Positions 22,346-64,000 of a stretch of 64,000 nucleotides of DNA are shown piece after piece. The notes beneath the pieces were generated by a model. The model made no database searches. It worked only from the letters and a program-made list of their open reading frames with translations, and had not been told where the DNA came from. Made by a program: the position numbers and the translations under genes. Origin of the DNA: Hexactinellida sp. DTS-2022 (taxonomy: Eukaryota; Porifera; Hexactinellida). Every line of letters starts with the position of its first letter. Positions within the stretch are counted from its first letter, which is position 1. The stretch is from contig JAPNXP010000001.1 in NCBI GenBank assembly GCA_028753945.1, positions 5,570,501 to 5,634,500 on the forward strand, in the 5' to 3' direction.

Positions 22346-22816
22346 AGTTATTCTTCCGTAGATCATCCACAGAACAGAGTTTAATTAACTAAGAACCCAA
22401 AATTTCAGGATAATTGTCTCATGGGTTACAGATGTGCACCTGGGGTCACGATTTTTGATTAAACACATTTTTGCACCTTTTTAATATTTAAACATTAACA
22501 ATAAATAGTACCCGAATATTCAATTTATATGCCTTGATAGAGAATTTAATTCTCACCTTTTCACAGTGCACGAATTTTCAAATTGTGCTTCGTTTGTGCC
22601 ACAATTGACTTGCAAATTCCCTTAGTTTACTAGCACTTCAATTGAAAGTGTTATATCTAATTCTATTATTTTAACTTGTGATAATTATATTGATTCTACT
22701 TGTGAGATCGAATAGCTTCTATTTTCCAATTGAAAACCAAGATTTTACATTCCATAACAACGACAGATTATGTGATTATATTTATTTCTGCTTAGAATAT
22801 TCTTCCACAATGGATA
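22346..22816 (+). repeat. R body, copy 1, left segment
   Basis: Begins near CCACAGAACAGAGTTTAATT, then CATGGGTTACAGATGTGCAC and CTGGGGTCACGATTTTTGAT, later TTGTTTCAACTTG-type repeats and ACATTCCATAACAACGACAG. It ends CACAATGGATA at the insertion point of integrase-type transposon 1. Confidence 0.85.
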
Positions 22817-23299
22817 TGTTGTAGGCGAAATTGAGTACCAGGCGAGATTGAGTCTCAATTTCGCCTGAAACTCAATTTCGCCTGCGAGTGTCAGGCGAGA
22901 TTGAGTACCAGGCGAAATGGAGTCATATTACTTATAGAAAATTTTGAACTAAATATTATGGGTTGTTATAAATTGATTATATCCAGATCTAATCCCGCTA
23001 TTTGTTCACTTCCAAATGTTAATACTAGGTAATCAAGTATGCTGAATACGAATTTGACACTCACAAATTTCTTTTATGTCTATTTATTGTTGTTATTTAC
23101 AATATAGGTAAAAAAATTAAGGAATATTCCAAATTAACATAGAGACTGGCAGTTATTTTAAGTAATTGCATAGTAACTAAATACGAATTTAGTCTAGAAT
23201 TAACTACATATGTACTTGCAAATAAGTGCTGTTTGTTGTTAAAGAGACACTTAGTGACACTTGTATTTGAGATACATACTAATTTCTAAGCCACTTACT

Positions 23300-23441
23300 A
23301 AGTTAGTAATAGGCGTCGTTACTCGCCCGGGTGCCCGGAAATGTCCGGGCGGCCCGGAAGGGTTGCCCTTATGCTACTAATACTATACCCGGAATTTCCT
23401 GGCTGCCCGAAGGGTTGACCTTTGCATTTACGACGCCTATG
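23300..23441. mobile_element. hAT MITE, CATAGGCGTCGT family, copy 2
   Basis: The right end ACGACGCCTATG is followed by CACTTACT; the same octamer stands at 23292-23299, with a few extra bases before a worn left end (TAGGCGTCGT). The interior has CCCGGGTGCCCGGAAATGTC as in the other copies. Confidence 0.75.
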
Positions 23442-23709
23442 CACTTACTGTATAGCGTCAGGAGGGAGGTGTCGACCCCACCCTCAAGTCAGGGGAGAGT
23501 ATCTTGTTGTTCTCAATATTTTATTCAATGGTAAATTCTGGGGTTACGGTTACGATTCAATTTCTCGCCACGGTTAGCCAGTCAACCGCCCATGCTGATC
23601 ACCACAGTAGAACATTATTTATACTACATAATTAGTAAGGTTCAGCTTTGTTTTTATTCCTTAGTATCCTTACTACTGCTACATTTCGTCCTTCAGAAAA
23701 TATTAAATC

Positions 23710-24351
23710 AAGGCTGAATTCGGTTAACCGCCGCTAATACCGGTTAACTGTTACGGATTTTAGTGATCAGTTAACCGATATGTTAATATTACAATTTACA
23801 ATTAGAAGTACAAATTATTGGATAACAGTGTGAATTTGCACGCATTTTGTTCAGAATATAATAATTGTTTATCTTATTTAGACTTATTACCCATAGTCAC
23901 AGATATATTTTGGTGACAACACAGTGTAGAAGTAACCTGAAGTGATAAACTTGTACCGCAGTTAATTGTACTAATAGAGTACTTGGCTAAAAGAATGTGT
24001 TTTTCGTTACTACAATTTAGATATTTTCTGAGAAATGTCTATATATTTTGTTATAACTTTCAGTGCCGGTTAACCGTAGTGTGAAGATAATCGTAACCGT
24101 GGCCTCAAAATGGTTAACCAACCCCACCCTTGGTTTATAGGAATTTACTACATACATATGGAATTGCATATATTTAAGATTACCATATTCTAACAAAATT
24201 AATATAATTTAAATTAGTGTTTTATATACGCAATTACATTGATATTATTTAACTAGATTAACAGAGCGGTTAACTGCTCAATTAAATCTGTAACAGTTAA
24301 CCAATATTAGCAGCTGTTAAGCGGTCACCCGGCTAACCGAATTTAGTCTAG
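23710..24351. mobile_element. GGTTAACC-rich inverted-repeat element
   Basis: Left GAATTCGGTTAACCG...GGTTAACTGTTACGG; the right end is its inverse, finishing CGGCTAACCGAATTTAGTC. Arms are about 65 bp. The middle has further GGTTAACCG copies (24068-24120). It resembles the core at 5873-5945. Confidence 0.65.
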
Positions 24352-26589
24352 ACCTGTGAATTGAGTCTAGTCTGTAGGTATCGTTTCGCCCCTCATAATA
24401 TTATTTGGGGTGGCCGTTAATAGACAGCCGGGACCCCGGATCAAAACCTCTTGAATAAGAAGCGTTACGAGATAGCAAAACAATTATTGAACTACCAGAA
24501 TTACAACTGGTGGATAACCTTATCCTTAAGATTGCACTATTGTTAGCCCGCCTATGGTCTCGCGGGCTACCAAATCCGGCAGTGCTTAAGCAGACCACAA
24601 TAATCTATATATTAAAAGCACAATAGTTCTTTGTGAGTGTGTGTGTGTGTGAGTAGGTATGTGTTTGTCCGGATTACATTAAAGTAATTCGGAGATAAAA
24701 AACGCATCTCTATTTGAGATAAAAACTAACTAGAGGCCTGCATTTGTCCGGCTCCGTATGTCGGCATTTGTCAAAAATTCCAAATATCAAATGTTTAGAA
24801 TTTTCCGACTACTTTGTCTCTATGTTTATGCTGGCATTTCTCCGACTGTTTATTAAGTATCGCAATGTGAGTATTCAATAACAGTTGTAATTTATTTATG
24901 TTTTCACTCAACACAATTTTTGTTGATATATGTACTTTTCAGATCTTGTGTTTTATTTAAAGATGATATATTGGCTAATAATAGAATACGTATAATAAAT
25001 ATATTAATGCTATTTAGTAATTGATATTTAAATTAACATGGATTTTACTTTGGCTCAATATAAATAAAATCGCTGTTCAAAATATAGAACATATGAAGGT
25101 CACAAGTTGTTTGTATCCAAAAGAAAGATAATCAATGTACTAGGCTAGTGCTCTTTTTAGCTAAGCTCAGTCAAGAATGTAATCATATTAGTTAGCTTTC
25201 ACAGTCAATATGTGTTACTGTGCTATTTCTTTTTCAGTCGTTACATAGCACCTTTTTTATAGAAAGTGCTCCTGAATTAACATTTAACAAGGCCTCTTAG
25301 TGTGTAAGAGGTTTTCTGCTGAGCACCCATTAGGGTCGCTGGCTATACTTACTCCTACGCACTTGACACCCACTATAGTTAGGGCTGACTTCGCACCTGT
25401 CCAAAGATTATATTACTTAGTGAAAGTAAAATGTAATGAAGCTTCTAAATAATTTTTATTATCAATTATATAATTTATATTACATATAATTACAATACAC
25501 ATTTATTGTTTGTTTGAAGGTACGAGAAACGAAATGACTTTCAGACCCTGTAGACATGCAAATTGGTGTAGATTGCAGAATTAAATTAAATAACTTGGAT
25601 TAACATTCGTATTTGTCATTCACCAATTCAGAGCAGTTTCGAAATAATATCATTTAGAAGTTCCTTAATTCCCACACACTGACCTTGAGTTTGAGATTTT
25701 CTGATTAATTCCCAATCCCATTCTGAATGGACTGGGATTAATCTTAAAATCTTTTAAACTATAATTTCCATAGGGATTTGGCCTCATCTCTGGTTGCATA
25801 TTATAACAATTGTTATTTTTAGACTATTTTCCAATATTGAGAAAGTAGTCTGAAAAATGTCAACATCTTAGATTCGGAGAATTCCCACATACGGAGTTTG
25901 ACGTAGTCTCAGAATGGGATTAGTAGGGCCCATAGGTTAGTCCATTACGGTGACATTGGGAGGCCATTGCACATTGGTGATTCAATTGGCAAACTTTTGT
26001 ATGTCCATGGCCCTACCAACCATACCAGAGCCTACGCCTTTGTATTGTTAATTTATAGATGCACATTTAAACACATTTACTACATAACTAGAAGGTAATT
26101 ACTCATTTACTCACTATACATTCTCAACTGAGTGATATTGATAAGCTGATTTAACAGCAAGACCAGCTATTAAACCAACTAACAACACAACCAGCTTATC
26201 AATAAACTCAACATTAATTTGAGAATGTGTCGCGATTAATTATGTTCTGTTTATGGTGAATGTATTGAAAATTATATGTATTGGAGATTAAACTGGTGGC
26301 TTGAGTTAAATGGTTTGAATTCGCGAGTAGATTAGGATAAATATTTATTAGGAGGCAATACGAGCCTACAGTATAATCTCGTTCGCTTTTGCTAGGGAAT
26401 ACTTAACTATTCCACTTAATTAATTATCATGTATAATTTACACTTTACAACGCAATATAATTAACTTACAAAAGGATTCGTATTCCTTTTGTCAAGTCTT
26501 CAATATTAATCTATATACGTAACTATATGATACTAGTTTGCTTACTTAGTTATATTTTAAAATCTCAATCTTATTCTTAGTCATTAATT
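24352..26589. other. Interior of transposon 1; no gene recognised
   Basis: Contains a (GT)n tract at 24634-24655 and a hairpin pair ATTGATAAGCTG/CAGCTTATCAAT (26126-26205). The GC-rich GCCCGC...GCGGGC stem (24547-24569) stands out locally. No frame longer than 65 codons carries a domain. Confidence 0.4.
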
Positions 26590-27008
26590 CCCCAACTTTA
26601 ACAACAAACAGCCCTTATTTGCAAGTAGTTAATTCTAAATTCGTATTTAGCATATGCAATTACTTAAAATAATCGTCTAATCTCTATGTAAATTCTAATA
26701 TTTTACAAACTTGTTTACCTATATTGTCAATAACAACAATAAATATTTGTATTAGAAACTTGTGAGTGTCAAATTCGTATTCAGCATACTTTGTTTACCT
26801 AGTATGATAAGTGAACGAATAACTGGATTAGATCTGGGATATAATCAATTTTTAACAACCCATAATATTTAGTTATAAATTTTCTATAAGTATTATGACT
26901 CCATTTCGCCTGGTACTCAATCTCGCCTGACCCTCGCAGGCGAAATTGAGTTTCAGGCGAAATTGAGACTCAATCTCGCCTGGTACTCAATTTCGCCTAC
27001 AACAGATA

Positions 27009-27255
27009 CATGACATATTTAATTCTAATTAATTCGCTTTGTGTTTAACTTATAGAGACAGTTCCAAATAGATTATTGGGGTTATCGAGTGAGCTGAATT
27101 CAAATATGATAGTGAAATTAAATTTAAATTAATAATAATTTTAAATAATTGAACTTATTCATTTTGCTGTACATAATAATGGTGTTAAATTATTAATAAA
27201 TTAATAATTATTCATACTGATTTGATAAATAGCATTAATCTCAGAGATTATACAT
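27009..27255 (+). repeat. R body, copy 1, middle segment
   Basis: Continues CATGACATATTTAATTC, ATTATTGGGGTTATCGAGTG and AATGGTGTTAAATTATT, up to CTCAGAGATTATACA, where the giant P/THAP element is inserted. Confidence 0.85.
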
Positions 27256-27685
27256 AGTTAGGGAATTATAACTCAAAACCTTGAAAAAATTGTTACCAAA
27301 CAATTTCTACACTAGCGTCTTCTTCTGTGTCCGAATAAACATAGAAAAAATTTGCAAGCCCAAAGCTGTGAGGAAATTTTTTACACCCCTTCAAACCTGG
27401 GGACCAGGGGCCAAAAATCGCCGATATTTTTTACCTTTTTTTTTTCATTAAAATCAATTTATATGGTGTATTTTGGAACAAGGAATTGTTTAGAACCACC
27501 CATTTTATGCTAGCATTAATAGAACCTCTCGAACTTGGAACATTTACTCTAAAAATTCGAATATCTGAAATCAAATACTACAAAAGTTAGGCCCTATCAA
27601 ATAAATTACTTGTTGAATATTCCCGCCCGTCCCAATTTTTACACTCCGTCCGGATTCATTTACTATTAACTTATGAACTTAAAAG

Positions 27686-28096
27686 TAGGGCTGAAACGAA
27701 TATTCGAAATGTAACGAACGAACCTTTTTCTAAACGAACGAATATTCGAATATTCGTTCGTTTGGATGACTAAGCATTAAATCAATTTCTAGAAACAAAA
27801 TACATTGGAAATAGGTTTTTGATCATGTTAGAATGGTATAATAATAGTTACAAAGTGTATTATCCACAAGTTAACTAATAATCAGCTAGTTTAGTAGGAA
27901 TTTATATTTACGATATCTCTAAGCTATACAAAAGTCTTGTTGTTGTCCAAAATTAGTCAACGAATATCCGTTTCAATCTAATATTCGTCCAAACGAATAT
28001 TCGTTTCGTAACGAATATTCGTTTGCAAACGAACGAATATTCGTTCAATCATTTCGAACGAATATTCGAATATTCGGTGTATTCGTTTCAGCCCTA
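27686..28096. mobile_element. hAT-like MITE with CGAATATTCG repeats
   Basis: Ends TAGGGCTGAAACGAATATTC and TCGTTTCAGCCCTA; exact 8-bp duplication CTTAAAAG (27678-27685, 28097-28104). Both subterminal zones carry many AACGAATATTCGTT motifs. Present in the left arm only, so it came after arm formation. Confidence 0.9.
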
Positions 28097-28627
28097 CTTA
28101 AAAGTGCAAAATATTAGCAATTGACTGATGTTAAATATTCCTAATATATCAATTTTAATAAGTCAAGAATTTTAGAGCATTACTTTTATATTTTGGGCAT
28201 TGCCTTGTGTTTTTCTAATTAAATTAAATGAGAATATGTATTATTTTATATTGGATATGTTGTTTCATATTAATGGAATTAAAAAGAAAAAGAAAATCCC
28301 GTCCGCCGTCCTTATTTTCTAAAAAATCTGGATGATAAACAAGTAATTTTTTTACATGCATTTATGTTGCGGTGTGTACCCACACACACTGTCATGTTAG
28401 TGTGTGCAGGTACACACTGCTGTATGACCGCACACAATCAGTGTATTAGTGTGTGCGGGCACACACTGGTATCTGCACACAATTAATGACTAGACTACAT
28501 TGTATCAATAAACACTAAGGAGTTTGTGTAATTGGGAAAGAGATCGAATGCTGGCTGCTATCCTCGTGTATTCGGTACATACAAACTATAATTTTTTATT
28601 CCGTAATAAAAATTATTTAATTATAAA

Positions 28628-29242
28628 CAGGAGTGTTAGAAATGTTGTAATAGCCTATTTTTCTGTTAACTGTTAACAGCATTACTCTTTACAGCTTATT
28701 TTTTACACTCCTTCTTTAGAAATTTTTATCAAGCCAATTTTCAGTAAATTAATCAAGTTAGAGTATCTGGAAACACTTACGATGGGTGTAGATAAGGGGG
28801 GGTAGAGGAGTTTTAATCACTCCAGATATTATACAAACTGTGAACTATATGCCCATACTATACATATAGTATATTACTCTGCTTGCGGTGTAAGCGCCAC
28901 ACTACTGAAAATTATCTATTCACCTGCTTACACAAAAGTACACTGACAATTGTCAGTATATTTAAGCCACAGAAGGTAAAATTGTATTTAGCAGCTTTTT
29001 TTTAGTTTCTAGAAATAAGAAACTTTTCGCTTTTAATTAAGAGGGCCCAGTAGTTGCAAATTCTTCTTTCACAGTTGAATTTCGATCCCAATAATTATAG
29101 AATGTCTCCTATGAGATACAAAAGGAGATTAATGTAAATATCAGACCCTTAATATGCTGTTAATGACGCATTTAATGTTACTAGTTAAACTACAGTTGGC
29201 TGATATATTTGCTGTTGGCTGTAACAGCTCCTTCCAGCCCTG
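28628..29242. mobile_element. hAT MITE of the GCTGTTAACAGC family, copy 1
   Basis: Left CAGGAGTGTTAGAAATG; the right end read inversely is CAGGGCTGGAAGGAGC. Exact 8-bp duplication ATTATAAA at 28620-28627 and 29243-29250. Subterminal CTGTTAACAGC motifs link it to 40318-40642. Confidence 0.85.
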
Positions 29243-29544
29243 ATTATAAATTACATCATTTTTTCAGGCTGGCAATACAGCTTTATAGATCAGCCCGTGA
29301 CCAGCCTAACTATACAGTTGATGTTAGTTAGATCATACTACAAGTCAATAATACATAATATCATAGATGACTAAAGTAAAAGGATAGACCATTAAATAAC
29401 CATGGATGAGCGTGAAGGCTTTTCAATATATTTCATAATATAAATTATTGAGAATAAGCGTACATTCTAAATCATTTCCAAAGAATAAGGTTATCATAGT
29501 GCATATATTGACATGAGTTAGTATTAAGTAATAACTAATAAGTT

Positions 29545-31002
29545 TTAATGGTGAGAAAATTTCTTTGCCTTGCGTGAATCGCCACGAGCAGCCAGCTGAG
29601 AATTGTAATTTTTAATTTTGTTTGATATAAGACAGTTCGCCATTACACTAAACAATTGTCTTAAAATATCCCAATAAACAGTAATGCAAGAAGAACATGT
29701 ATTTCTCCAGGTTTCACTATATTCACCTTCTATATATTTAATGCCTATAGAGACCAAAATCTGTTTAGAAGATCCTTGGGCTAGGACTGACAAAAGGGAT
29801 TTGTTGCTATCAATCGAAACAAAGATTTTCCATATAATAACCACTGATTCTAATATAACATCTGAAGGCCATTTGAGTGATCCTCTGTCTACAATTTTCA
29901 AATAAGCATATCTTGAATCCTGGGGTTCTTCTTTCAAAAATTCTCTATCAATGGTGAGAAAATTCAAACATGCTGAGCATTTAGTGGACCGCTTATAATA
30001 ATGATGTACTGTTTACTCAGCCATAAATGCTAATGCTTGTAGCGTTTGAGAATTGTACTCAATAGTTTCTAATAAAGGGAGTTGGTTATGCAATTCCTCT
30101 ATGACTTGAGATGATACATTTGGAGGACTTTGTTCACTATCTGGACATTCTGAGAATTTACTGATAAACTCTTGGATAGAAATCTGTTCTGTACTCGATT
30201 GGTACAGTTTTAATATGCTAGAAACTTTCAGTCGACGTTCAGACTCAAGTATTTGACAATAGGAAATATGATACACGTAGTTAGCTCCTGACATCTGTCT
30301 GTACAGTCCAAAATGATGTTCTAACGGATCATTCTGTAGAAAAGTAGTTAAAACATAAGAAAATCCGCAATTGGTAGTTAGATGTCGAATTATAAGAGGT
30401 ATGGATAAGCATGAGTGCCTCAAACTAGTGAAAGTTTGGCGGGATAATGATGCTTTATTTGTTTTGGTGGTTGCTTCCCAAGCATCAATCCAAAATACAA
30501 TACGCTGTAAAATGAGAAGCGAGGATCATTCCTTATAAGTGGTTTTGAGAATTCTTCATTCAAACGTGTTCCCTTCTGAGGTGTACTAACATTAAATATT
30601 TTCCACAAGTTCACTAAATAGAAATAAATTCTGCTGATTTCGTTCTGAGTTGTCGTTTCGTGAATTATCTTAAATTTTTAGAGCAGCACTAGTTGACTCA
30701 TTAAATATTTTGAGAGCAAGTTTTACATTTTGACGTTCAAAACTAGAAGGCCAGCATGATTTAGCTGTCAGTTGATGAGCAATTTTAGCGAAAGCATGTT
30801 GATCTTGTCTGTAAAGTATTCGTATGTCTTCAAAACAAGCCTTGCATTGAGTAAGAGGATACTTCATGGAGTCAGTAGATATATCACCAAAATTAGGAAA
30901 AATAAAAGTGTGATTGAAATCTTTCGTATTAAGCCAATTATTCCGAATACACTTCAAAATTTGAACAGGATAAAAAAACAAGAAAAAGTTATCAATTGAC
31001 AT
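29545..31002 (-). pseudogene. P-type transposase copy 2, C-terminal part, catalytic core deleted
   Basis: Minus strand. Starts at PVQILKCIRNNWLNTKDF (near 31002), then ILYRQDQHAF, LTAKSCWPSSFERQNVKLAL, PLEHHFGLYRQMSGANYVYH, ending KIVDRGSLKWPSD...RGDSRKAKKF. Each block aligns with copy 1 (7174-8663). Frame breaks lie near 30670, 30420 and 30000. The segment carrying the two catalytic Asp motifs seen in copy 1 is missing: the linker after the THAP domain (about 31510-31160) runs straight to the RNNWLN block within 160 bp. It cannot make a full transposase, but could once have made a DNA-binding repressor-like product. Confidence 0.85.
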
Positions 31003-31510
31003 AGCTGTGTCAATATGTTGTATCTGCGCCTATTTTGGGAACCATACATTCTCAATCTGACACAAAACGAATTGTAGTAGAGGAAGGACATAGAAACAGA
31101 TACATGCTCTTGGTTTATGAACTCCAACTCTGACTCTGACTCACGATTATATTTCTCAATTTGACGATTGCTTCAATAATTTGTTTCCTCGCTGAATTAA
31201 CGTGATATCGTACAGGATCTGATTGACAAATATAATTCACAGAGGAGCTACATTCAATCAAAAGGATTTCAATTTGACGTATATCTGCCAAACAATTGAG
31301 GGATAGAGCAATTGGTTCGTTATAGTAAAATGCTTTGGTACGTAGATTGAAATTAATCGAAAGGGTGGCTTCGACTGTGATCTTAGAATTGTGAATATTT
31401 GGAAGTATAAAATGAACTGAATCTTGATTGGTAGACTAACGTAGCCAGTTTTTAAGAGAGATGAGATGAAGCTTTTGTTTCAAGTCATCCAAAGTAGCTA
31501 TACCATATCT

Positions 31511-31927
31511 CTATTCATCAATCTTGAATGTTTTCTGACTTTGTTGTATAACCTGAGCAAAGAATTGCTCCTCTTTTAACTCCACTTTCAATCGTTTACA
31601 TGACTTAGATGATTCATGTGGGGAAAGATACTTAGGGCAGCCAGGCAGAAAACAAGGAACGGCGCCTTTGCAAAGCACTGGTACTTTGCGAGGAGTTTCT
31701 TGAAGTGTACCATTAGTTCCAGATGGTACTGAGTAGGATCGAGCAATGTCTTCCTCACAAAAATGTTTTTCACATACATATGTGTATTGGTTAATATCTA
31801 CCAGATGTAGCGCTCTTATCCACTTGTGTCTTAGCTCAGGATCAGTAGGTAGTTTGAATACAGACACATAGCCATTAGTAGAGCTGGAGTTTCCTTTGCA
31901 TCCTGGAGCTGAACATTTGTTCGGCAT
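31511..31927 (-). CDS. THAP domain exon of P-type transposase copy 2
   Basis: The ATG at 31927 opens MPNKCSAPGCKGN, then VSVFKLPTDPELRHKWIRAL and YVCEKHFCEEDI. This is a complete THAP zinc finger: Cys5, Cys10, then Cys-x2-His-Phe near residues 52-56, with the invariant Pro and Trp. VLCKGAVPCFLPG follows where THAP proteins carry AVPTxF. The rest is a charged linker ending KTFKIDE. THAP domains bind transposon ends through zinc-coordinated folds in the nucleus. The ATG lies only 36 bp from the edge of the palindrome 31963-32839. The 139-codon frame ends at a TGA/TAG region and the transposase continues beyond a gap, so this is the intact part of a broken gene. Confidence 0.85.
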   Translation of the reverse strand: MPNKCSAPGCKGNSSSTNGYVSVFKLPTDPELRHKWIRALHLVDINQYTYVCEKHFCEEDIARSYSVPSGTNGTLQETPRKVPVLCKGAVPCFLPGCPKYLSPHESSKSCKRLKVELKEEQFFAQVIQQSQKTFKIDE

Positions 31928-31962
31928 AATTTGCTAATTAGTCTGGTCGTTGGAAGGTTGAA

Positions 31963-33964: not shown

Positions 33965-34009
33965 TAATTAAATAATCATTATTACGGAATAAAAAAATAT
34001 AGTTTGTAT

Positions 34010-34257
34010 CAGGGAATGAAAGGTTCACGAACGGACTGAATAAACCAAATTCAGTTCATTTCAAATTAACGCACGTTCAGTTCGTTCACGTTCACCTCCT
34101 AACTTCAACGCCACCAGCGTTCGTTCAGTTCGTTCAACTTCCGTTCAGGCAACCGTTGACGTTCGTTCAGTTCGTTCAGCGTAAATGCCATAAAGTCTTG
34201 CGTTCAGTTCGTTCAGTTCAAGTTCAATAAGTTCGTTCGTGAACCTTTCATTCCCTG
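34010..34257. mobile_element. hAT MITE with CGTTCAGTT repeats, 248 bp
   Basis: Ends CAGGGAATGAAAGGTTCACG and its inverse; exact 8-bp duplication GTTTGTAT (34002-34009, 34258-34265). The interior is dense in GTTCAGTTCGTTCA motifs. Confidence 0.92.
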
Positions 34258-42734: not shown

Positions 42735-43922
42735 TCAAATTTGACATTTACATGACCAGTTATCAGTTATCTCAGACACTCGCCATCCCCCTTCCCATCG
42801 GGCGTAAAATTTCTTCGACACACCAACGTGCGGGATAGACAGCCAGACAGAATCACCCACCTTAAATATTACTGATGAATTGTTACAGTGTGAATCGTAG
42901 TACTCTTTTTGCCGTTTTTGTGCCTGTATCAATTGGCCTTCTACAAATTCCTGAATTTCAATCAATTTCCGACGCAGAAACTTCTCATAAGAAGTCGGGT
43001 CATGTCCAGTTTGGGGCAATAACTGACCAATACTGGGAGAATCTCGCCCATACATGAGCTGAAATGGTGAGACTCCAATAGTAGAATGTTTTGACCTTCG
43101 ATATGCAAACAAAACCAAATAAAGATATCTCTCCCAATCCTCGTTTTTATCAACATAGTACCGAAGCATTTGGAGAATTGTTATATTGCTTCTTTCTACT
43201 AATGAATTACCTTGTGGGTGGTATAATGTTGTGTGTGTTTTCTTAATGCCCAATGAATTACATGTCTCTCTTAAGAGATGTGACTCAAAGTTTCTCCCTA
43301 GATCTGACTGTAGAAATTCAGGTATACCAATTCTGCAGAACGTTTCGACTAATAACTCAGTTATTGTTTCCGTCTTTTGATTTGTCATTGGAAAAAACTC
43401 TAGCCATTTTGTAAAAGCATCTTCGATTACTAGAATATATATGTGTCCTTTTAGACTAACTGGAACCTCCAGGACATCAACATGCACAAGTTGCATGGTC
43501 CTGCCGATATGAGTATTTAATAATAGGGCCCGAGTTGGTAAGGGTTCAGACTTTTGACAAATTTCACATGAGGTAACAAAATCGCTGACATCGGAAGCCC
43601 AGATACTTGAGACGACTTAGAGTACGTTTAATACCCTGGTGCCCAGCATTATCGTGAGCCTGACGGAGAAAATCTGTTTTCATTGTGTCAGCAGCAACAA
43701 TGACGCTGGAAGGTTGGAGAAAGGTTCAACCTTATACGTGTAGTTACGAACAAGTACCCCATTTATCAATTGGAGTTGTGATTGGATTTGCTTATAACGT
43801 TTTAAAGAGGGTAAATTCCACTCGAGACCATAAATACGCATATGAACTGGGGTCATCTCTAATTCATACAACACTTTTTTCAAAACAAGATCGTTGAGCT
43901 GTTTACGTCTAACTTCTTCCAT
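42735..43922 (-). pseudogene. pol: gypsy-2 integrase
   Basis: 43922-43680 codes the region before the zinc finger (LEWNLPSLKRYKQIQSQLQL). The zinc-binding pair region near 43650-43560 is frameshifted. 43496-42735 has VHVDVLEVPVSL, FLQSDLGRNFES and HPQGNSLVERSN (D,D,E), FAYRRSKHSTIGVSPFQLMY and FKVGDSVWLSI. The core is unbroken over 253 codons. Confidence 0.9.
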
Positions 43923-43984
43923 AGGAGGTCATTGTGAAAGTTCAGTAAGTGCACAAAGTTCGTTATCCGGTGATTTCTGCACGT

Positions 43985-44347
43985 TTACTCAGTCACACTA
44001 TCTTCATATGTAAAACGCGAAAGAGCATCTGTATTATTGTTCTCGGTCCCCTTATGATATGTAATTATAAAGTCGTATACTTGTAATATAACAGCCCATC
44101 GCCAAAAACATCCAAAACATTTTTGTTCAGCTAACCATTCTAATGGTTTATGATCAGTCAGAATCTCAAACTCTCGCCCTAAGAGATAGTGCCTGAAGCG
44201 TTTCACCGATTCCACAACCGCTAAACATTCCAATTCTACCGTACTATAATTTTTCTCAGCCTTCCTTAACGCTCTGCTGTAGTAAGCAATCACTTGTCCC
44301 CCTGTTCTAACACTCCTCCAAAACCGGTTCCACTTGCGTCTGTACAT
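43985..44347 (-). pseudogene. pol: gypsy-2 RNase H
   Basis: VIAYYSRALRKAEKNYSTVE, FEILTDHKPLEWLAEQK and YHKGTENNNTDALSRFTYED follow gypsy-1 closely. Preceded by a frame break near 44350, where GTG..GGVLEQ should be. Confidence 0.9.
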
Positions 44348-47757: not shown

Positions 47758-48180
47758 TTCGCCAAGTCATCAACGCCTCAATGTGTCAAGAACCATTTGT
47801 TAATTGGTCCGAGTCACAAGGAACGGTAGATAAATTTGAAGTTTGTTTATATCATAAACCATCTTGAGTTTACTGCCATTCATTCATTATGTATTGATAA
47901 TAAATTATATTATTAGGAATTTATTTTAGCAATATTATCCACGGTGAGTTGAGTAAAGTCAACAAATTCCTTATATTATATTATTTTATTTTATCCATTG
48001 TATAGTAATACTACAATTAAAAAGAAGCCAGCTGTAATTTATTAGTTAAATCAATATAATTATCGCAAGTTGAAACAATAGAGTAGGATTTAACAGGTTA
48101 AATCAATATAATTATTACAAGTTGAAACAATAGAATTAGATTTAACAGTTTACTGAATCTCAAGTGTGAGGAAATTCATG
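47758..48180 (-). repeat. R body, copy 6, inverted, truncated
   Basis: GCCAAGTCATCAACGCCTCA to GATTTAACAGTTTACTG, then joined head to head with copy 7. Confidence 0.85.
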
Positions 48181-49047
48181 CCATAAAAAGGGGTTGAAAT
48201 TTCTTTGTTTATTCACACTTCAGTTTAAGTAAAAGTGTTAAATCTAATTCTATTGTTTCAACTTGTAATAATTATATTGATTCAACTTGTTAAATCTTAC
48301 ACTATTGTTTCAACTTGTGATAATTATATTGATTCAACTTGTGAGATCGAGTAGGCTTCTATTTTCCAATTGAAAACTAAGATTCTACATTCCATAACAA
48401 AGACAGATTATTTGATTATATTTATTTCTGCTTACAATATTCTTGAACAATGGATACATGACATATTTAATTCTAATTAATTCGCTCTGTGTTTAACGTA
48501 TAGAGATGGTTCCAAATAGATTCCTGGGGTTATCGAGTGCGCTGAATTCAAATATGAAAGTGAAATTCAATTTAGACTAATAATTATTGCAAATAATTGA
48601 ACTTAATTTATTTTGATGTACATAATATTGGTGTTAAATTATAAATAGATTAATTAAATATTTATACTAATTATCTAAATTTCATTAATCTCAGAAATGA
48701 TATAAGATAGAAACAAACTTTAAATTTATCAATTGATCCTTATGCCACGTATAACCTCTACAAATGGGTCTTGACACCTTGAGGTGATGATGACATCGTA
48801 AGAAAAATGTATTTTTACAATTTTGTGAATTAAATATTTCGCATGGGTTGGTTGGAGTTGGGTGAATACCCAACACGCAGATAAAAAATGATGAGTCATC
48901 AGCTATTATATTCTACTGAAACTTGAATATCTCTCAAATGAAGTGAGCTAAATGGAAACTTCCACCACTCTAAGGGTCGTTGCCTACTGAAACACCTTTC
49001 TGAAATAATTTAACACCTTCATAGTGATGATGACTAGGCGAAAAAAA
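48181..49047 (+). repeat. R body, copy 7, with empty GATA site
   Basis: Contains AACAATGGATACATGACATA at 48447-48466, the uninterrupted form of the sequence that carries the three Ginger-like insertions. Otherwise the long type, ending GATGATGACTAGGCG. Confidence 0.88.
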
Positions 49048-52284: not shown

Positions 52285-52340
52285 ATTACTGTGCCGACTA
52301 TACTATAGTATAGTGGCCCAGTATTAGAATCACTGCCTTT
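52285..52340 (+). repeat. R minisatellite, one unit
   Basis: TTACTGTGCCGACTATAC to CACTGCCTTTAT. Confidence 0.9.
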
Positions 52341-53652: not shown

Positions 53653-53776
53653 AAATCCAAAATTGCAGCCTGCGCCGACAGAATGTTCTTTTGGAGGCAC
53701 TATAAATAAACAACCAACAAAATGTAGTGCCACCAAAGGAACATGCGTCGGCACAGGCTGCAATTTTGGATTTTTT
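53653..53776 (+). repeat. R hairpin 10
   Basis: Left arm CTGCGCCGACAGAATG has two changes; right arm standard. Confidence 0.92.
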
Positions 53777-55071
53777 ATTATTTCTCCGTAGACGGTGCCC
53801 TGGCCAGAGCTTTAGAGTTGATGTGCTAAAACTTGGCATGTAGGTGCGTATGGACCGTCTAATTTGCACCTGGGGTTACGATTTTTGATTAACCAATTTT
53901 GGACACATTTTGACACCTTTCAAAATTTGTCTGGTCCATAATTATAAAAATGTTTTACTAAACCCCCAAGTTTTATTTCTTATTTAGATTCACCATAAAA
54001 TTCTGCGTCTGATGGGTGAAGAAGATTTTCAATAAATGGTTTAATTTCTGCCATAAATGGGGGTTGAAATTTCTTTGTTTACTCACACTTCAATTTCAGT
54101 AAAAGTGTTAAATCTAATTCCTTTGTTTCAACTTGTATAATTATATTGATTTAACTTGTTAAATCCTACTCTAGTGATTCAACTTGCGATAATTATATTG
54201 ATTTAACTTATAAATTCCAGCTGGCTTCTATTTAATTGTAGCATTACTATACAATTGATTAAATTAAATTAATTTATATAAGGAATTTGTTGACTTTACT
54301 CAACTCACCGTGGATGACATTGCGAAAATACATAACTAATAATTTAATTTATTATCAATAAGTAATGAATGAATGGCATTAAACTAAGGATGGTTTATGA
54401 TAGAACCGTTAAGATTTTACATTCCACAACAACGACAGATTAAGTGATTATATTTATTTCGGCGAGAATATTCTTGCACAATTAATGTACTGACGTAATT
54501 AATTATAATTAATTCCATTTGTATTTAACTTATAGATTGTTCCAATTAGATTATTGGGGTTATCGAGTGCGTGGAATTCAAATATTATAGTGAAATTCAA
54601 TTAAATTAATAATAGTTGCAAATAATTGAACTTAATTTATTTTGCTGTATATAATAATGGTGTTAAATAATAAATAAATTAATTAAATAGTATACTAATT
54701 AGCTAAATTTCTTTAATCTCAGAGATGATTCAAGATAGAAACAAACTTTCAATTTATCAATTGGTCCTTATGCCACGTAACACCTCTACAAATGGGTTTT
54801 GACACCTTGCGGTGATGATGACATCGTCAAAAAATGTGTTTTTACAATTTTGTGAATTAAATAATTCGCATGGGTTGGTCGAAGTTGGGTGAATACCCAA
54901 CACGCACCTAAAAAATGCTGACTCAGCACATATTAAATTCTACTGAAACTTGAATATCTCTCAAATGAAGTGAGCAAGATGGAAACTTCTACCACTCTAA
55001 GGGTCATAGCCTTCTGAAACACCTTTCTGAAATAATTTAACACCTTTATAGTGATGATGACTTGGCGATAA
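53777..55071 (+). repeat. R body, copy 13, short-plus-long fusion
   Basis: Same junction AGAACCGTTAAGATTTTACA (54391) as copies 12 and 15, so these three share an ancestor. Confidence 0.82.
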
Positions 55072-55197
55072 AAATCCAAAATTGCAGCCTGTGTCAACAG
55101 CATGTTCCATTGGAGGCACTATCAATAGACCACCACCAAAATATAGTGCCACCAAAGGAACATGCGTCGGCACAGCTGCAATTTTGGGTTTTTTTCT
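55072..55197 (+). repeat. R hairpin 11
   Basis: Left arm GTGTCAACAGCATG is changed; right arm CACAGCTGCAATTTTGGG is shortened by one base. Confidence 0.9.
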
Positions 55198-55721
55198 CCG
55201 TAGCAGGTGCCCTGGCCACACTTGTATACATAGAGGGTTGTAACTTGGCGTGTAGGTTCGGAGTCGACGTCTAATTTGCACCTGGGGTTATGATTTTTGA
55301 TCAAATTATTTTAACACCTATATAAACTAATTATGGCTGTTACATGAAATCATACCTTGTGAACTTTATAAAATTTTCATATTGGATAGCTAATTAAATT
55401 CTACACCTTTTTGAAAATCAAAAAGATTCAACTTACCGTTAATTTCTGCCACAAATCGGGGTTTAAATTTCTTTGTTTACTCACACTTCACTTTCAGTAA
55501 ACTTTTAAATCTAATTCCATTGTTTCAACTTGTAATAAATATATTGATTAAACTTGTTAAATCTTACACTATTGTTTAAACTTGCGATAATCATATTGAT
55601 TCCACTTGTGAAATCGAGTAGGCTTCTATTTAATATTTGAAAACTAAGATTTTACATTCCATAACAACAACAGATTATGTGATTATATTTACTTCTGCGT
55701 GAATATTCTGCACAATGGATA
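55198..55721 (+). repeat. R body, copy 14, left of transposon 2
   Basis: Runs to TCTGCACAATGGATA, the GATA target. Confidence 0.85.
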
Positions 55722-55837
55722 TGTTGCAGGCCAAATGCGTTTACAGGCTAAACGCGTTTAGCCTGAAAATATACGCCAAACGCGTTTAGCCTAGGCCAGA
55801 TGCGTTTCAATTAATTTATAAATAGAATGGGTGTTCT

Positions 55838-56490
55838 CAGAGGCGCCCACAGACCCCTAAAAAAAGTAACGCACAATGTTGTATGGAAATTTGGGCTGTA
55901 AATATTAGTATGATTGTGCATTATATTGAATCTTAAATTCTTAATTATTTGAGAGAAGTGCAATTCGCCGATGTCCTGATGCATCAAACGAATGTATAAC
56001 CCTCTCAACGTCGATCGGATATCTCGATGCACGTGCATTAGTGCAAGACCCGTGAGTCAAAAATTGTGTGCGAGAGCTGCAAGTAAGATATCAACTTAAG
56101 TTGATTGATACGCGTATCGCGTATAATACGTATCATACATCATACGCTATCCATCAGTACGTATTTTAAGTTAAATATATGATCAACAAGGGATGTTTTC
56201 AAAGTAAATTCAGTTGTATAGTATACTATATGTTTAAATCTTATTGTAAAACAAGATGCTAGCAAGTAATCAAATTTATACTATATACAAGACTATACTA
56301 AGGTCGATTAACAGTAAAAGAATAACGATTAAAGCGAAAGTTGTTCATTACAATTCCAATAGCGCGATATGATAAGTAAGATATACGAATAATAAGTATC
56401 AATAAAATACGTATTAAACAACCAAGAAAATTACACAGTTAAATTTGTATACGCACGTGCTTATACTGCGTACCCCTGTGGGCGCCACTG
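55838..56490. mobile_element. hAT MITE nested in transposon 2, 653 bp
   Basis: Ends CAGAGGCGCCCACAG and CTGTGGGCGCCACTG; exact 8-bp duplication GGTGTTCT (55830-55837, 56491-56498). The right arm of transposon 2 shows the empty site. Confidence 0.95.
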
Positions 56491-56910
56491 GGTGTTCTAT
56501 ATTTATCACTATTAATTAAATGCATTTATTTCTCATTCTATCACGCGATTATTGTTATTTATTCACCAGAATTGGTGTATTGCATTACAGTAGATGTCGG
56601 ATATAGGCACACCGGTTAATAAGAACACTATGTTGGAAAACGGTTGCCATATACCCTATATAATTTATGTCGGATATAAGCACACCGGTTTATAAGAACA
56701 CTATGTTGGAAAACGATAATATAATGTGTTGCCAAGTTGATATAATGTCGGAGTCATTTTTGAAAGTACTGATTGGAACTACCGAATAATGTCATTTCGT
56801 GAGGTGGAAAACACAATGAAGACAAGAATAGTTAGTTCAACTAAGAATTTATATGAAATTTAGCATATCTAACTACGAGTATTACTGCCCAATTCAATAT
56901 ATGTGATTAC

Positions 56911-57077
56911 CATAGGCGTCGTAAACCGCCCGGGTGCCCGGAAATGTCCGGGCGGGCAGAAGGGATTGTCCCTATGCTACTAACACTAAACTCCGAGTTT
57001 ACCCGGAGTTTACCCGGACATTACCCGGAATTTCCGGGCGGCCCGAAGGATTGACCTTTGCATTTACGACGCCTATG
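56911..57077. mobile_element. hAT MITE, CATAGGCGTCGT family, copy 3
   Basis: Ends CATAGGCGTCGTAAA and inverse; exact 8-bp duplication GTGATTAC (56903-56910, 57078-57085). Internal TTTACCCGGAGTTTACCCGG duplication. Confidence 0.95.
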
Positions 57078-57280
57078 GTGATTACCCTATAATATAGATA
57101 GATAGATAGAATGATAAACTTATAAATCACATTCGTCAGAAATCATTCAAACATCAAATGGTTGGGAATTTTTCCCCTAGTCTTTGAAATAGTATGAAAT
57201 AGCTTTTTGAAGGTGATGAAGATTTCCTTTAGGCCTAAGTAATACTCCTTTCCTGAGATAAGAATGAAAATCACTATAAT

Positions 57281-59719
57281 TTGAATAAACGAACAAATCC
57301 CGAATTGTGTCTTATTGTTTACTTCAAAATGTTGATGCGAAAACAGAATTTCAATCAAGTTCAAGAAGAAAACTCTTGTAGCTCCGTTTTTTCTTCCGTG
57401 GAAATAGCTCACATAATGAATATATATTCTAGTCCCTGCCCTTCTGTCCACGGTGCATTGCGTCAGAGATATTATCGAATGAGAAAGAAATATCTTGTTA
57501 AGAATAATACTCTTTACCAGTCAGACACTCCTACAGGCAATTTATTGCAAGTTGTCCCTAAAGATAATTTATTCGATCTCTTTGATAAAGTGCATGGCGA
57601 GGATGGGAAGCACCTTGGAAGGGATCGCTTGTATGTCGAGCTGAAAAAGCGATTTACAGGATTTTCTAGGAAAGTAGTCCTTGCCTTTGTAGGATTGTGC
57701 CAAGAATGCCAACTACAAAAATCAAAGAAATCCATCAAAAGCTTCGTTACCAAACCGATTCATAGTAATGACTTTGCATCTAGAGGCCAAGTAGACCTCA
57801 TAGAAATGCAGGCTAGTGGAGAAATATACTCACCATATAACTTCTTGCTAGTATATCAGGATCATCTCACAAAGTTTGTGGTCCTTCGCCCTCTAAAATC
57901 AAAAACCGCTACCGAGGTTTCATCTACGCTCCTTGATATATTTTGTCTCATTGGCTCACCCCATATATTGCAAAGCGATAATGGGAGAGAATTCAAGAAC
58001 GTTAATTTAGCCACCATGATAAGAGAGCTGTGGCCCAGCTGTAAGATAGTGCATGGAAAACCTAGACATCCTCAGAGTCAGGGTTCAGTAGAGAGGGTCA
58101 ATCGAGAAATCAAAAAGGTCCTAGGTGCACTAATGCGCAAAAATGAAGACCCTTGTTGGGTAAAATATGTCTCTATCGCCCAACACTCCATAAACACAAG
58201 CCACACTCCACTCTTGAAAACAAATCTCCTTACAGAGTGTTATTCGGAAGAGAAGCAACCAAGGGCCTGGGTGATCTCGGTATTCCTGAAAATATTTCTA
58301 ATTACATATCTACAGAGGAAGAATTAAATCTGTAAGTTAATTATTACAAGCGAATTGTGTGTGCTTCCGCTGCGCGGCTGCGGATATTGAGTGTCCGGAT
58401 AAGAAATACTTTGGGTGCTTCATCGATACCAATCAGCTAGTAATTATGATAGTATGTATATATTCAGTGGTGTAGGCAGGATTAAGTTTGTTCATTCTGG
58501 TGTGTGGACACAGTATCACAGCCGAAGCGCAAGCACGCGAAGCGCTTATATCAAATTAAATCAGTGGTTCCATCACTGCTGATATTTGTAGTAATAAGTT
58601 TATAAAAACTATCATAAAAACTATAATATTAATTCATTATTTAGACTACTTGAACAAGATCAAGAATTTAATGAAGATTACCCGGTAGATAGTAGTTCGA
58701 GCACACCTACATGGAGTCACACTGATCTATCTGCTCATTTTTGTGCCGATGTGAATCCAGAATACGTTCCAGATTATTGATTGGAATTAGATGATTCCTA
58801 TACCAGAGAAATCACGCACAACAACTATGGGAATGTGTTAATCGTTCCCTACAATTACATACTTGATAATCCGAAGTTTCTTTCAACTCCGATAGATACA
58901 AATACAAGGCCATCCATTCCTGTACTCCAATGTGCTACTCCATCAGAAAATCAGCCCGCATCTCCATTGCTTATTCCAGTTCCTGAATATTCATGTCAAC
59001 AACCACTTTATAACAATTTGAATCCATCTTACCCGTCTCAATATGCTTCCTGTTCGTACATACCACCACCGTCGCTACAATTAGAGACTGCTGTACCTGT
59101 ATGCACAGTTTGTAAGGGTGAGTGCACAGGTGCTCACAGTTGTCCAGGTTGTCATAGACCTATCCATACGATTTGTGGACAGACTGTTGGTGAGGAAGGC
59201 TACGGATGTCCTGTCTGGTGCATCTCCTGATCATTAGAGAATAGAGCTGATAGCATCCAGGATGGAAGAGTAGCAGCTAAAAGGGGACAAGAAAAACAAA
59301 TCAAAAGAATGGTAAAGCAGTCAAACAAAAAGATTAAACTCGTTGACGTTGGTCAAAATGTCCTTATACCTATCCCCATAGTTGATAGAAAATCACCTTT
59401 TGATCCTCAAAACCTTCCTGGAGTAGTATTGCAAAGGTTAGTTGATGGGATGTATCAAATAGGGACTACCCACGGGATACTCGATCACCTATTTACATCG
59501 AGCCAGTTTGAATCTTCCCTTTCTTACTTTCTATCACCCGAAGATGTCCCAGATAACCGAGTAACCTTAAGAGAATCAATTCTTCATCATTCCTTTGGTA
59601 AGAATAAGCTACAATGTAATTGTACAGCTGGCTGCAATTCGAATAGATGCAAGTGCAAGCGTTCTAACAGAATTTGTAATTCAAAGTGTCATAAGTCGCT
59701 TATCTGCCATAATAAATAG
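57281..59719 (+). pseudogene. KRBA2/SCAND3-type integrase with PHD-like and CXC-like Cys domains
   Basis: Exon 1 (57281 or later to 58331): an H2C2-like zinc region (VHGEDGKHLGRDRL ... CQECQ), then the integrase core with GQVDLIEMQASG, HILQSDNGREFKN and HPQSQGSVERVNREI, the D,D,E triad. A one-base shift near 58215 moves the last part to another frame (SPYRVLFGREATKGLGDLGI). The intron is 58332-58644. Exon 2 (58645-59719) is one frame holding two TGA stops (58778, 59228). It includes CTVCKGECTGAHSCPGCHRP, HTICGQTVGEEGYGCPVW and, at the end, CNCTAGCNSNRCKCKRSNRI followed by CNSKCH. This order is characteristic of KRBA2-like transposon integrases. It would insert the element into DNA in the nucleus. 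Three lesions suggest it is inactive. Confidence 0.88.
58332..58644 (+). other. Intron of the integrase gene
   Basis: Donor CTGTAAGT, acceptor TTCATTATTTAG; removal joins EEELN to LLLEQDQEFNEDYPVD in frame. 313 nt, longer than the host-gene introns, and it contains a GC-rich GAAGCGC palindrome-like patch (58530-58548). Confidence 0.75.
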
Positions 59720-60000
59720 GACTCTTGATTAAGAGATCATAAAGTTCTCTCTATAGAAATAATCTTGTATAAGAAATAAAATGCCTAACACAAAGTATTG
59801 ATAGTCATTGCAGTCCCGTAGGTAGAGATCACTGCCAATAATGCAATATTATTAGGTAGATCCAATTCATTACTTTCAAATATAATACAATACAATATAA
59901 TATATTATAACCTAAATTATATAATACCATATATTATATATATTAACTATAATATAAATTTATTATAATATACAATATATAATACAATACATTAAATAAC
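59720..60000. other. AT-only low-complexity tail of transposon 2
   Basis: 59876-59995 is almost entirely A and T with ATATAATA motifs. No gene. Confidence 0.6.
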
Positions 60001-60349
60001 CGGCATGTTCTTATATCCGACATAAATTATATAGGGTATATGGCAACCGTTTTCCAACATAGTGTTCTTATAAAGCGATATGTTCTTATAAACCGGTGTG
60101 CCTATATCCGACATCTACTGTAATGCAATACACCAATTCTGGTGAATATATAACAATAATCGCGTGATAGAATGAGAAATAAATGCATTTAATTAATAGT
60201 GATAGATATAGAACACCCATTCTATTTATAAATTAATGGAAACGCATCTGGCCTAGGCTAAACGCGTTTGGCGTATGTTTTCAGGCTAAACGCGTTTGGC
60301 CTAGGCTAAACGCGTTTAGCCTGTAAACGCATTTGGCCTGCAACAGATA

Positions 60350-60929
60350 CACTGACATAATTAATCGCTCTGTCTTTAACTTATAGAGACTGTTGCAATT
60401 AGATTATTGGGGTTATCGAGTGTGCGGGATTGAAATTTTATAGCCAAATTAATTAATTAATTATGTATGGCAAAATAATTTAAATTAATTATTGTAAGTT
60501 GACATTGAAATTGGTGTTATATTATAAATAATATTAATAATTATTTATACTAATTAATTAAATATCATTAATCTCAGAGATTATAGAAGATAGAAACAAA
60601 TTTCAAATTTATCAATTGATCCTTATGCCACGTAACACCTCTACAAATGGGTCTTGACACCTTGAGGTGTTGATGACATCGTTAAAAAAATGTGTTTTCA
60701 CAATTTTGTGAATTATATAATTCAAATGGGTCGGTTGGTTTGCGGTGATCACCCAACACGGACATAAAAAATGCTGACTCATCACTTATTATATTCTAAT
60801 GAAACTTGAATATCTTTGAAATGAAGTGATCAAAATCGAAACTTCCAACTCACTAAGGGTCGTTGCCTTTTGAAACACCTTTCTGAAATAATTTAACACC
60901 TTCATAGTGATGATGACATGGCGGAAAAA
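60350..60929 (+). repeat. R body, copy 14, right of transposon 2
   Basis: Resumes CACTGACATAATTAATCG and GGGGTTATCGAGTGTGCGG, ending GATGATGACATGGCGG. Confidence 0.85.
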
Positions 60930-61052
60930 AAATCCAAAATTGCAGCCTGTGCCGACAGGATGTTACTTTGGAGGCACTATCAATAAACCACCAACTAAAT
61001 ATAATGCCACCAAAGGAACATGCGTCGGAACAGGCTGCAATTTTGGATTTTT
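60930..61052 (+). repeat. R hairpin 12
   Basis: Left arm GACAGGATGTTACTTTGG; right arm CGTCGGAACAGGC. Confidence 0.92.
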
Positions 61053-62356
61053 ATTTTTATTTTCTCCGTAGACTGTGCCCTGGCCAGAGCATTGGAGTTG
61101 ATGGGCTAAAACTTGGCATGTAGGTGCGGTTGGACCGTCTAATTTGCACCTGGGGTTACGTTTTTTGCTTAACAAATTTTGGACACATTTTTGACACCTT
61201 TCAAAATTTATCTGGTCCATAACTAAAAAGATGTTTACTAAACCCCCAAATTTTATTTCATATTTGGATTCACCATAAAATTCTGCATCTGATGGGAGAA
61301 GAAATTTTTCAATAAAGGGGTCAATTTCTGCCATAAATGGGGGTTGAAATTTCTTTGTTTACTCACACTTCAATTTCAGTCAAGTGTTAAATCTAATTCT
61401 ATTGTTTCAACTTGTAATAATTATTTTGATTTAACTTGTTAAATCCTACTCTAGTGATTCAACTTGCGATAAATATATTGATTTAACTTATAAATTCCAG
61501 CTGACTTCTATTTAATTGTAGTATTACTATACAATGGATTATATAAAATATTTTAATATAAGGAATTTGTTGACTAAACTCAAATCACCGTGGATAACAT
61601 TGCTAAAATAAATAATAAATAATTTAACTTATTATCAAAACATAATGAATGAATGGCATTAAACTAAAGATGGTTTATGATAGAACCGTTAAGATTTTAC
61701 ATTCCACAACAACGACAGATTAAGTGATTATATTTATTTCGGCGAGAATATTCTTGCACAATTAATGTACTGACATAATTAATTATTAATTAATTCCTTT
61801 TGTATATAACTTATAGACGGTTCCAATTGGATTATGGTGGTTATTGAGTTCGTGGAATTCAAATATTATAGTGAAATTCAATTTAAATTAATAATAATTG
61901 CAAATAATTGAACTTAATTTATTTTGCTGTACATAATAATGGTGTTAAATTATCAATTTATTAATTAAATATTTATACTAATTAGCTAAATTTCATTAAT
62001 CTCAGAGATGATACAAGATAGAAACAAACTTTCAATTTATCAATTGGTCCTTATGCCACGTAGCACCTATACAAGTGGGTCTTGACACCTTGAGGTGATG
62101 ATGACATCGTAAAAAAAATGTATTTTTACAATTTTGTGAATTAAATAATTCGCATGGGTTGGTTGGAGTTGGATGAATACCCAACACGCACCTAAAAATG
62201 CTGACTCAGCACATATTATATTCTACTGAAACTTGAATATCTCTCAAATGAAGTGAGAAAGATGGAAACTTCTACCACTCTAAGGGTCGTAGCCTTCTGA
62301 AACACCTTTCTGAAATAATTTAACACCTTTATAGTGATGATGACTTGGCGAAAAAA
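61053..62356 (+). repeat. R body, copy 15, short-plus-long fusion
   Basis: TTCTCCGTAGACTGTGCCCT to GATGATGACTTGGCG; junction AGAACCGTTAAGATTTTACA at 61682. Site variant CACAATTAATGTACTGAC, uninserted. Confidence 0.83.
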
Positions 62357-62475
62357 AATCCAAAATTGCAGCCTGTACCGACAGCATGTTCCATTGGAGG
62401 CACTATCAATAAACCACCTACAAAATATAGTGCTACCAAAGGAACATGCGTCGGCACAGGCTGCAATTTTGGATT
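62357..62475 (+). repeat. R hairpin 13
   Basis: Complete; left arm CTGTACCGACAGC. Confidence 0.92.
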
Positions 62476-62848
62476 ATTTTTACTTGTAATTATTATATTG
62501 ATTTAACTTGTCCAATCCTACTCTATTGATTCAACTTGCGATAATTAAATTGATTCAACTTATAAATTCCAGCTGGCTTCTATTTAATTGTAGTATTACT
62601 ATACAATGGATTAAATAAAATATAATAGTATAAGTAATTTGTTGACTAAACTCAATTCACCGTGGATAACATTGCTAAAATAACTAACTAATAATATAAT
62701 TTATTATCAATACATAATGAGTGAATGGCATTAAACTCTAGATGGTTTATGATAGAAACAAACTTCAAATTTATCTACCGTTCCTTGTGACTCAGACCAA
62801 ATAAAAAATGCTTCTTCACACCTTGGGCGTTGATGACTTGGCGAAAAA
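62476..62848 (+). repeat. R body, copy 16, truncated
   Basis: Starts inside the TTGATTTAACTTG stretch, ends GGGCGTTGATGACTTGGCG. Confidence 0.8.
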
Positions 62849-62970
62849 AAATCCAAAATTTCAGCCTGCGCCGACAGCATTTTCCTTTGGAGGCACTATC
62901 AATGAACAACACAAAAATATAGTGCCACCAAAGGAACATGCGTCGGCACAGGCTGAAATTTTGGATTTTT
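62849..62970 (+). repeat. R hairpin 14
   Basis: Both arms carry compensating changes: TTTCAGCC on the left and GGCTGAAA on the right, keeping the stem paired. Confidence 0.93.
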
Positions 62971-63456
62971 ATTATTAGTCCGTCTCCTCTCCACAGATTA
63001 GAGTATTATTAACTAAGAGCCCAAATTTTCACGATATGTGTCTCATGGGTTACAGATGTGCACCTGGGGTCACGATTTTTGATTACATTTTTTTGGACAC
63101 ATTTGACACCTATTCAATGTTAGAAAAGGAACAATAAATAGTGCGCGAAAATTAAATTTATATGCATTCGATAGAGAATTAAATTCTACACCTTTTCACA
63201 GTGCACGAATTTTCAAATTGCGCTTCGTTTGTGCCACAATTGAGTTGCAAAATCCCTTTGTTTACTAACACTTCAGTTCAATTGAAAGTGTTAAATCTAA
63301 TTCTATTGTTTCAACTTGTGATACTTATATTGATTCCACTTGTGAGATCGAGTAGGCTTCTATTTTCTAATTGAAAACTAAGATTTTACATTCCATAACA
63401 ACGACAGATTATGTGATTATATTTACTTCTGCGATAATATTCTTGCACAATGGATA
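62971..63456 (+). repeat. R body, copy 17
   Basis: GTCCGTCTCCTCTCCACAG to TTGCACAATGGATA, the GATA target of transposon 3. Confidence 0.85.
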
Positions 63457-64000
63457 TGTTGCAGTCCAAACGCGTTTCGACTAGTTGGAACGCGTTTCGA
63501 CTGCTTTTCTAGTGCAAATGCGTTTCCAATCTTAATTGTTTATCATGGGTATTTATTAAGTCAACTGTAAATAAATTGAATATCTAATTAGCTTAATTAA
63601 TTATGAAATATTTAATATTATTAATTTAATTATTTCATAAAGGAATCCAACTTAGATTGTTTACAATTTTGTGTGAATACTTGAATACAGGAGTTTTTTT
63701 AAGGTCGATCTTGGTGCTCAATTTGCACCAAGATTTTTGTAATTATATCACGATTTGTGTCGGCAGCGGCCTCTGCAGTGTTGAGTTACACCACGATTAA
63801 GGGTTGGCCGCAGCCGCTGCAGTTTTGAGTTACACTAAGGTCGCGCTGAGTTGCACCAAGGTCTGAACCTTAAAAAACACCCTGCTTGATTAGCCTTTTG
63901 ATTTATCTTGTCTACAAGAGATGCGATTACATTATATTCCTCTGTCATAGATTGCTCTTTTAAGAAATATTGATATTTTGGACTCAAGACAAAGCATCTC
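63457..64000. mobile_element. Ginger-like transposon 3, left end only
   Basis: Starts TGTTGCAGTCCAAACGCG after GATA (63453-63456). Outer zone AACGCGTTTCGACT twice in alternating form, then AAATGCGTTTCCAAT, like transposon 2. The right end lies outside the window; no gene seen so far. Confidence 0.7.
63688..63884. mobile_element. hAT MITE, 197 bp
   Basis: Left CAGGAGTTTTTTTAAGGTC, right inverse CAGGGTGTTTTTTAAGGTTC; flanks CTTGAATA and CTTGATTA (7 of 8). Interior CTTGGTGC...GCACCAAG and GTTGAGTTACAC motifs. Confidence 0.88.

Follow-up and report, generated by a model that had tools for sequence, protein, structure and literature searches.

Ginger2/TDD elements have TGTNR ends, 4-bp target duplications, and the target RTATAY, with terminal inverted repeats of 50 to 180 bp in animals, while the duplications of Ginger1 elements are CCGG or CCGT (Bao, Kapitonov and Jurka 2010, PMC2836005, in the portions drawn on here). 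The elements described below agree with this account of Ginger2/TDD in their ends (TGTTG(C/T)AG at both ends of transposons 1 and 2), in the 4-bp duplication (GATA around both complete elements), in the RTATAY-centered target seen in flanks outside repeat R, and in an H2C2 zinc finger plus DDE integrase core. Short nonautonomous relatives are present in both. Unlike the elements in those portions of the source, the target consensus of the present elements is longer by two bases in each direction (ATG-TATA-CAT), and the terminal repeats of transposon 1 (~430 bp) are longer than the 50 to 180 bp given there for animal Ginger2. With Ginger1, as outlined in the same portions, they share TGTNR ends, a 4-bp duplication, and an integrase-like transposase, but the duplications here are mostly TATA, and GATA at R, rather than CCGG or CCGT. 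The elements are placed in Ginger2/TDD as a putative assignment by ends, duplication, target, and domains. An earlier note on this DNA had called them integrase-type, Ginger-like transposons, which is borne out. The same note regarded targeting of a fixed sequence as unusual for Ginger-type elements, a view at odds with the preferences of Ginger1 (CCGG/CCGT) and Ginger2 (RTATAY) in the published portions cited above. Among the titles of the literature searched, none dealt with Ginger2 elements in a tandem repeat, and PMC2836005 was the one source found to mention both Ginger2 and RTATAY.

Elements at one base of repeat R

In the window (the whole 64-kb stretch of DNA that was analyzed), CACAATGGATA directly precedes an element start at positions 22817, 55722, and 63457, each time in a separate copy of a repeat, R, as had been claimed. 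The whole genome (112.4 Mb) contains six occurrences of the 16-mer CACAATGGATATGTTG, including the three window junctions. By a rough estimate from base composition, ~3e-6 copies of CACAATGGATATGTTGYAG would be expected by chance in 64 kb. After CACAATGGATA, the elements begin with TGTTGTAG at 22817 and with TGTTGCAG at both 55722 and 63457. Transposon 1 (22817 to 27004; 4188 bp), Ginger2-like with AATTGAG-type ends, terminates in CTACAACA. Transposon 2 (55722 to 60345, plus strand; 4624 bp), Ginger2-like and coding with AAACGCGTTT-type ends, terminates in CTGCAACA. Both are followed by GATA, giving the layout GATA-TGTTG(T/C)AG...CT(A/G)CAACA-GATA. Beyond the right GATA stands CATGAC (transposon 1) or CACTGAC (transposon 2), as stated previously, and the GATA proves to be a 4-bp target duplication, with copies at 22813 to 22816 and 27005 to 27008 for transposon 1 and at 55718 to 55721 and 60346 to 60349 for transposon 2. 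The left end of transposon 3 (63457 to 64000), of the TCCAAACGCGTTTCGACT type, belongs to an element extending past the window; a search of the adjoining 3.5 kb (L104) found no right end of it at R.

The terminal inverted repeats of transposon 1 span ~430 bp at 86% identity. Those of transposon 2 comprise 43 perfectly matching bp, followed by a subterminal array, and its ends also align over 117 bp at 91% identity with the alignment shifted by 17 to 20 bp. The subterminal arrays differ among the three window elements, as reported before. Transposon 1 contains no open reading frame (ORF) of ≥120 amino acids in the window ORF list and is taken as nonautonomous. By eye, transposons 1 (23307 to 23450) and 2 (56911 to 57080) were seen to contain GC-rich blocks that resemble each other and have AGGCGTCGT and ACGACGCCTA at their boundaries; a small inverted-repeat element has probably inserted into each transposon.

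The R sequence to the left of transposon 1 (22501 to 22816, plus strand) is 90% identical to that left of transposon 3 (63134 to 63456, plus strand), and the part left of transposon 2 (55401 to 55721, plus strand) is 88% identical to 48173 to 48456 over 284 bases. The latter stretch belongs to R copy 7, which displays the intact site that had been ascribed to it (AACAATGGATACATGAC), with the empty target ATGGATACAT at 48450 to 48459 on the plus strand. Full units recur every ~1.2 kb in three of the five long loci read (L081 to L083), which identifies R as a tandem repeat of ~1.2-kb units. It is present in several hundred copies and on many contigs. The other two loci (L079 and L080) hold one full unit each plus partial ones. 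A 24-base pattern of the R site has 731 genome matches at ≤3 mismatches, filled and empty sites counted jointly. The ATGAC-type site has 598 matches at ≤3 mismatches (reversed control, 11), and the CACTGAC/CATTGAC form has 129 exact matches.

Genome-wide, such an element lies at the same base of R in ~19 loci, which substantiates the recurrent use of one position noticed earlier. This count comprises the 15 left junctions listed minus C1:2763690 (L048, with a non-R flank), hence 14; three new loci among the six right junctions listed (C17:867354, C1:6459639, and C4:3586081); and two new loci from a further 14-row search (C1:3863891 and C7:1899445). Six rows of that search pair by position with loci already counted (C1:5630836, C11:2087411, C14:1414767, C10:2264362, C15:3437617, and C17:2693029), and the other six either do not represent junctions between R and these elements or are ambiguous (C4:3809660). 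The count includes C1:15890105 and C11:12775609, which have degenerate sites or ends, and treats C14:1405428 and C14:1414767 (9.3 kb apart, with unlike ends) as one locus. An additional end type, TGTTATGGGC, is found at 2 of the 19 loci. At C7:1899445-1899485, an AATTGAG-type end directly follows TGTTGCA at the R site; here, one element is apparently nested inside the end of another.

Target preference across the genome

Searches for element ends returned 471 matches, 167 of the AATTGAG type (≤2 mismatches) and 304 of the CGTTT type (≤1 mismatch). Flanks were analyzed for 200 ends, the best 100 of 167 and the best 100 of 304, respectively, a choice that favors low-mismatch matches and introduces a slight bias. 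Among the matches listed, 12/200 ends lie at the R GATA site and 188/200 elsewhere, so that the collection of junctions proposed in the earlier note finds most of them scattered and speaks against a lineage aimed at R alone. By end type, the R-site share among the matches listed is 5/100 (AATTGAG) and 7/100 (CGTTT), with transposon 1 contributing both of its ends to the five and transposon 2 both of its ends to the seven. Another 6 of the 188 (3 per end type) were placed at other R positions among the matches listed; these calls were made by eye on 12 to 15 bases of flank, so that others may have been overlooked.

Among the matches listed, 173 distinct flanks lie outside R. Their final four bases are TATA in 93 cases and GATA in 9, T occupies position -6 in 81% and G position -5 in 50%, and the pattern ahead of the element end is (A/G)-T-(G/A)-T-A-T-A. 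RTATA ends 89 of these 173 listed flanks. Read outward from both ends, the target has the palindromic consensus ATG-TATA-CAT, which includes RTATAY. The R site, ATG-GATA-CAT (ATGGATACAT), is one base off this consensus, and its core, GGATAC, is one base off RTATAY. The 4-bp duplication was also found at three elements outside R (L048 with L101, C5:935828 with L102, and L103); their ends were paired by position, and those of L048/L101 and C5:935828/L102 also by end type. Elsewhere in R, a short Ginger2-type element (L079:1284-1817) sits at ATG-GATT-CAT with R flanking it on both sides, and this site again fits the palindromic target. As a separate observation, two transposon-2-type elements on different contigs (L057 and L058) have the same 60 bp on their left, terminating in TTGTATA. 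Comparison of the L057 flank with R gave no match; the common flank is either part of a duplicated segment or another target that is itself repeated.

The ten bases ATGGATACAT occur 869 times in the genome (reversed control, 265). Within the first 100 of the 869 sites, 34 coincide with exact R matches, and 7 of the 17 read from the remaining 66 are R-like. Extrapolation from these 17/66 places ~61% of the sites in R, that is, ~530 in R and ~339 outside. Among the matches listed, five insertions at ~530 R sites compare with two at ~339 sites outside (P = 0.71), and a strict count, also among the matches listed, gives two in R and two outside (P = 0.65). The estimated rate at ATGGATACAT is similar in R and outside, with small numbers. 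The five R insertions are of the CATGAC type. C1:5593302, and C18:3284223 together with C18:3279462, are exact on both sides read; C3:3696294 was read on the left side alone, and C14:1490050 and C1:6459644 each have one side that differs by a single base. The two insertions outside R at exactly ATGGATACAT are L048 with L101 and C5:935828 with L102, and their flanks gave no match to R (for the C5 insertion, the L102 side alone was compared).

Origin of the filled R copies

We consider it very probable that ordinary Ginger2 elements have inserted repeatedly, and apparently independently, in a multicopy repeat that carries a near-consensus target. The elements would be subfamilies of Ginger2/TDD-type cut-and-paste transposons, whose integrase-like transposase would act across a 4-bp stagger when joining TGTTG...CAACA ends to a palindrome with the consensus ATG-TATA-CAT, so that the central four bases would be duplicated. 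Each R copy with ATGGATACAT would form a separate landing site. Because many R copies each carry this near-consensus sequence, different subfamilies would come to rest at the same base. We infer this chemistry, the role of the encoded integrase as mover, and which integrase mobilizes transposon 1. Underlying this reading are the observed ends and duplication, the flanks of listed ends, the consensus, and the copy numbers, together with the comparison of R flanks given below.

The elements might instead be drawn specifically to R by something besides the motif, for example, by zinc-finger or cysteine-rich domains binding satellite chromatin. A position-independent motif model predicts only 0.2 to 0.34% of insertions at the R site, compared with the 12 of 200 ends seen there among the matches listed. 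The six listed ends placed by eye at other R positions point the same way, as does the SCAND3-like zinc finger that transposon 2 encodes. The same model also underpredicts hits at ATGGATACAT outside R (0.3 of 200 listed ends expected and 2 seen; Poisson P = 0.04) and thus seems too simple for this sequence. With 188 of the 200 listed ends elsewhere and a similar estimated rate at ATGGATACAT outside R, we dropped R-specific targeting as the main cause and hold it to be improbable. An extra pull toward R, or improved survival of elements inserted in it, may still contribute; if true, such attraction of Ginger2 to R arrays would make R a safe haven.

The other explanation in the earlier note was a single old insertion whose inside was replaced several times. 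If that insertion had also been copied along with R, this would account for the presence of various elements at precisely the same R base, and the tandem arrangement of R makes gene conversion and unequal exchange plausible. The end types are, however, widespread with other flanks. Moreover, when the left flanks of 14 filled copies were compared with other R copies (leaving aside the short row E_L069), the nearest neighbor was an empty copy for nine, tied between empty and filled for two, and was a copy filled with a different element for three; a same-ended filled copy was nearest in 0/14. The alignment is poor (65%) for C11:2086, which is among the nine. Trees of R flanks, as the note had suggested building, were made from 35 left flanks and 31 right flanks; they place filled copies in several positions, but with little support (18/32 and 16/28 inner branches, respectively, are open), and three pairs of copies filled with different elements join, two of them starred: T1_win22817 with T6_C17, T2_win55722 with T6_C15, and, in the right-flank tree, C17:867 with C14:1414. 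The comparison took in 21 empty copies out of several hundred, and sampling on this scale is expected to yield such filled-with-filled pairs, which makes them weak evidence either way. The end-type populations and the nearest-neighbor comparison led us to drop the replaced-interior explanation, and we judge it highly improbable. Of the earlier interpretation, the element type, the recurrent R base, and the GATA duplication hold, but neither of the two explanations it offered does.

The pattern amounts to known Ginger2 behavior that an abundant repeat with a near-consensus target has brought into view. When the integrase prefers a short palindrome and such a repeat is at hand, insertion takes on the appearance of site specificity. 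The R copies also offer a natural assay of how Ginger2 elements choose their targets, in which several hundred empty sites of similar sequence can be set against ~19 filled ones.

Coding region of transposon 2 and its relatives

The putative integrase-type transposase part of transposon 2, with the H2C2 zinc finger and DDE core, lies at 57281 to 58327 on the plus strand. Its matches to PF17921 (E = 4.5e-5) and to PF00665 (E = 1.8e-4) fall under the curated Pfam cutoffs, and it also matches PFV integrase (E = 2.5e-15); some homologues of the protein are named KRAB-A domain-containing protein 2-like. A second coding stretch (58781 to 59230, plus strand) contains a SCAND3-like zinc finger (PF23663; 34.8 bits, cutoff of 27). 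The third (59309 to 59719, plus strand) is an ORF with a cysteine-rich C terminus, the cysteines being read directly, and matched no Pfam family.

Other retroelement- and transposon-like frames were noted by eye in the window. Gypsy-type retrotransposon-like frames (protease, reverse transcriptase, and integrase) appear in the ORF list at 17814 to 21432 and 42735 to 44347, and a THAP-domain-like ORF, perhaps of a P-element-like transposon, at 31511 to 31927.

The integrase-type protein of transposon 2 has at least 120 matches in the genome, some of which are pieces of a single copy. Integrases at GCCAAATGCG-ended loci are 78 to 95% identical to it (L008, L009, L011, L012, and L023 with L028), and those at TCAGAAGCC-, TCAAAGTGCG-, TCCAAGTGCG-, or TCCAAACG-ended loci are 61 to 67% identical (L013 to L017, L020 to L022, and L026). 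At L018 and L032, which have variants of GCC-type ends, the values are 61% and 52%. The subterminal arrays mark subfamilies, imperfectly. Integrase-bearing copies also terminate at places other than the R GATA site.
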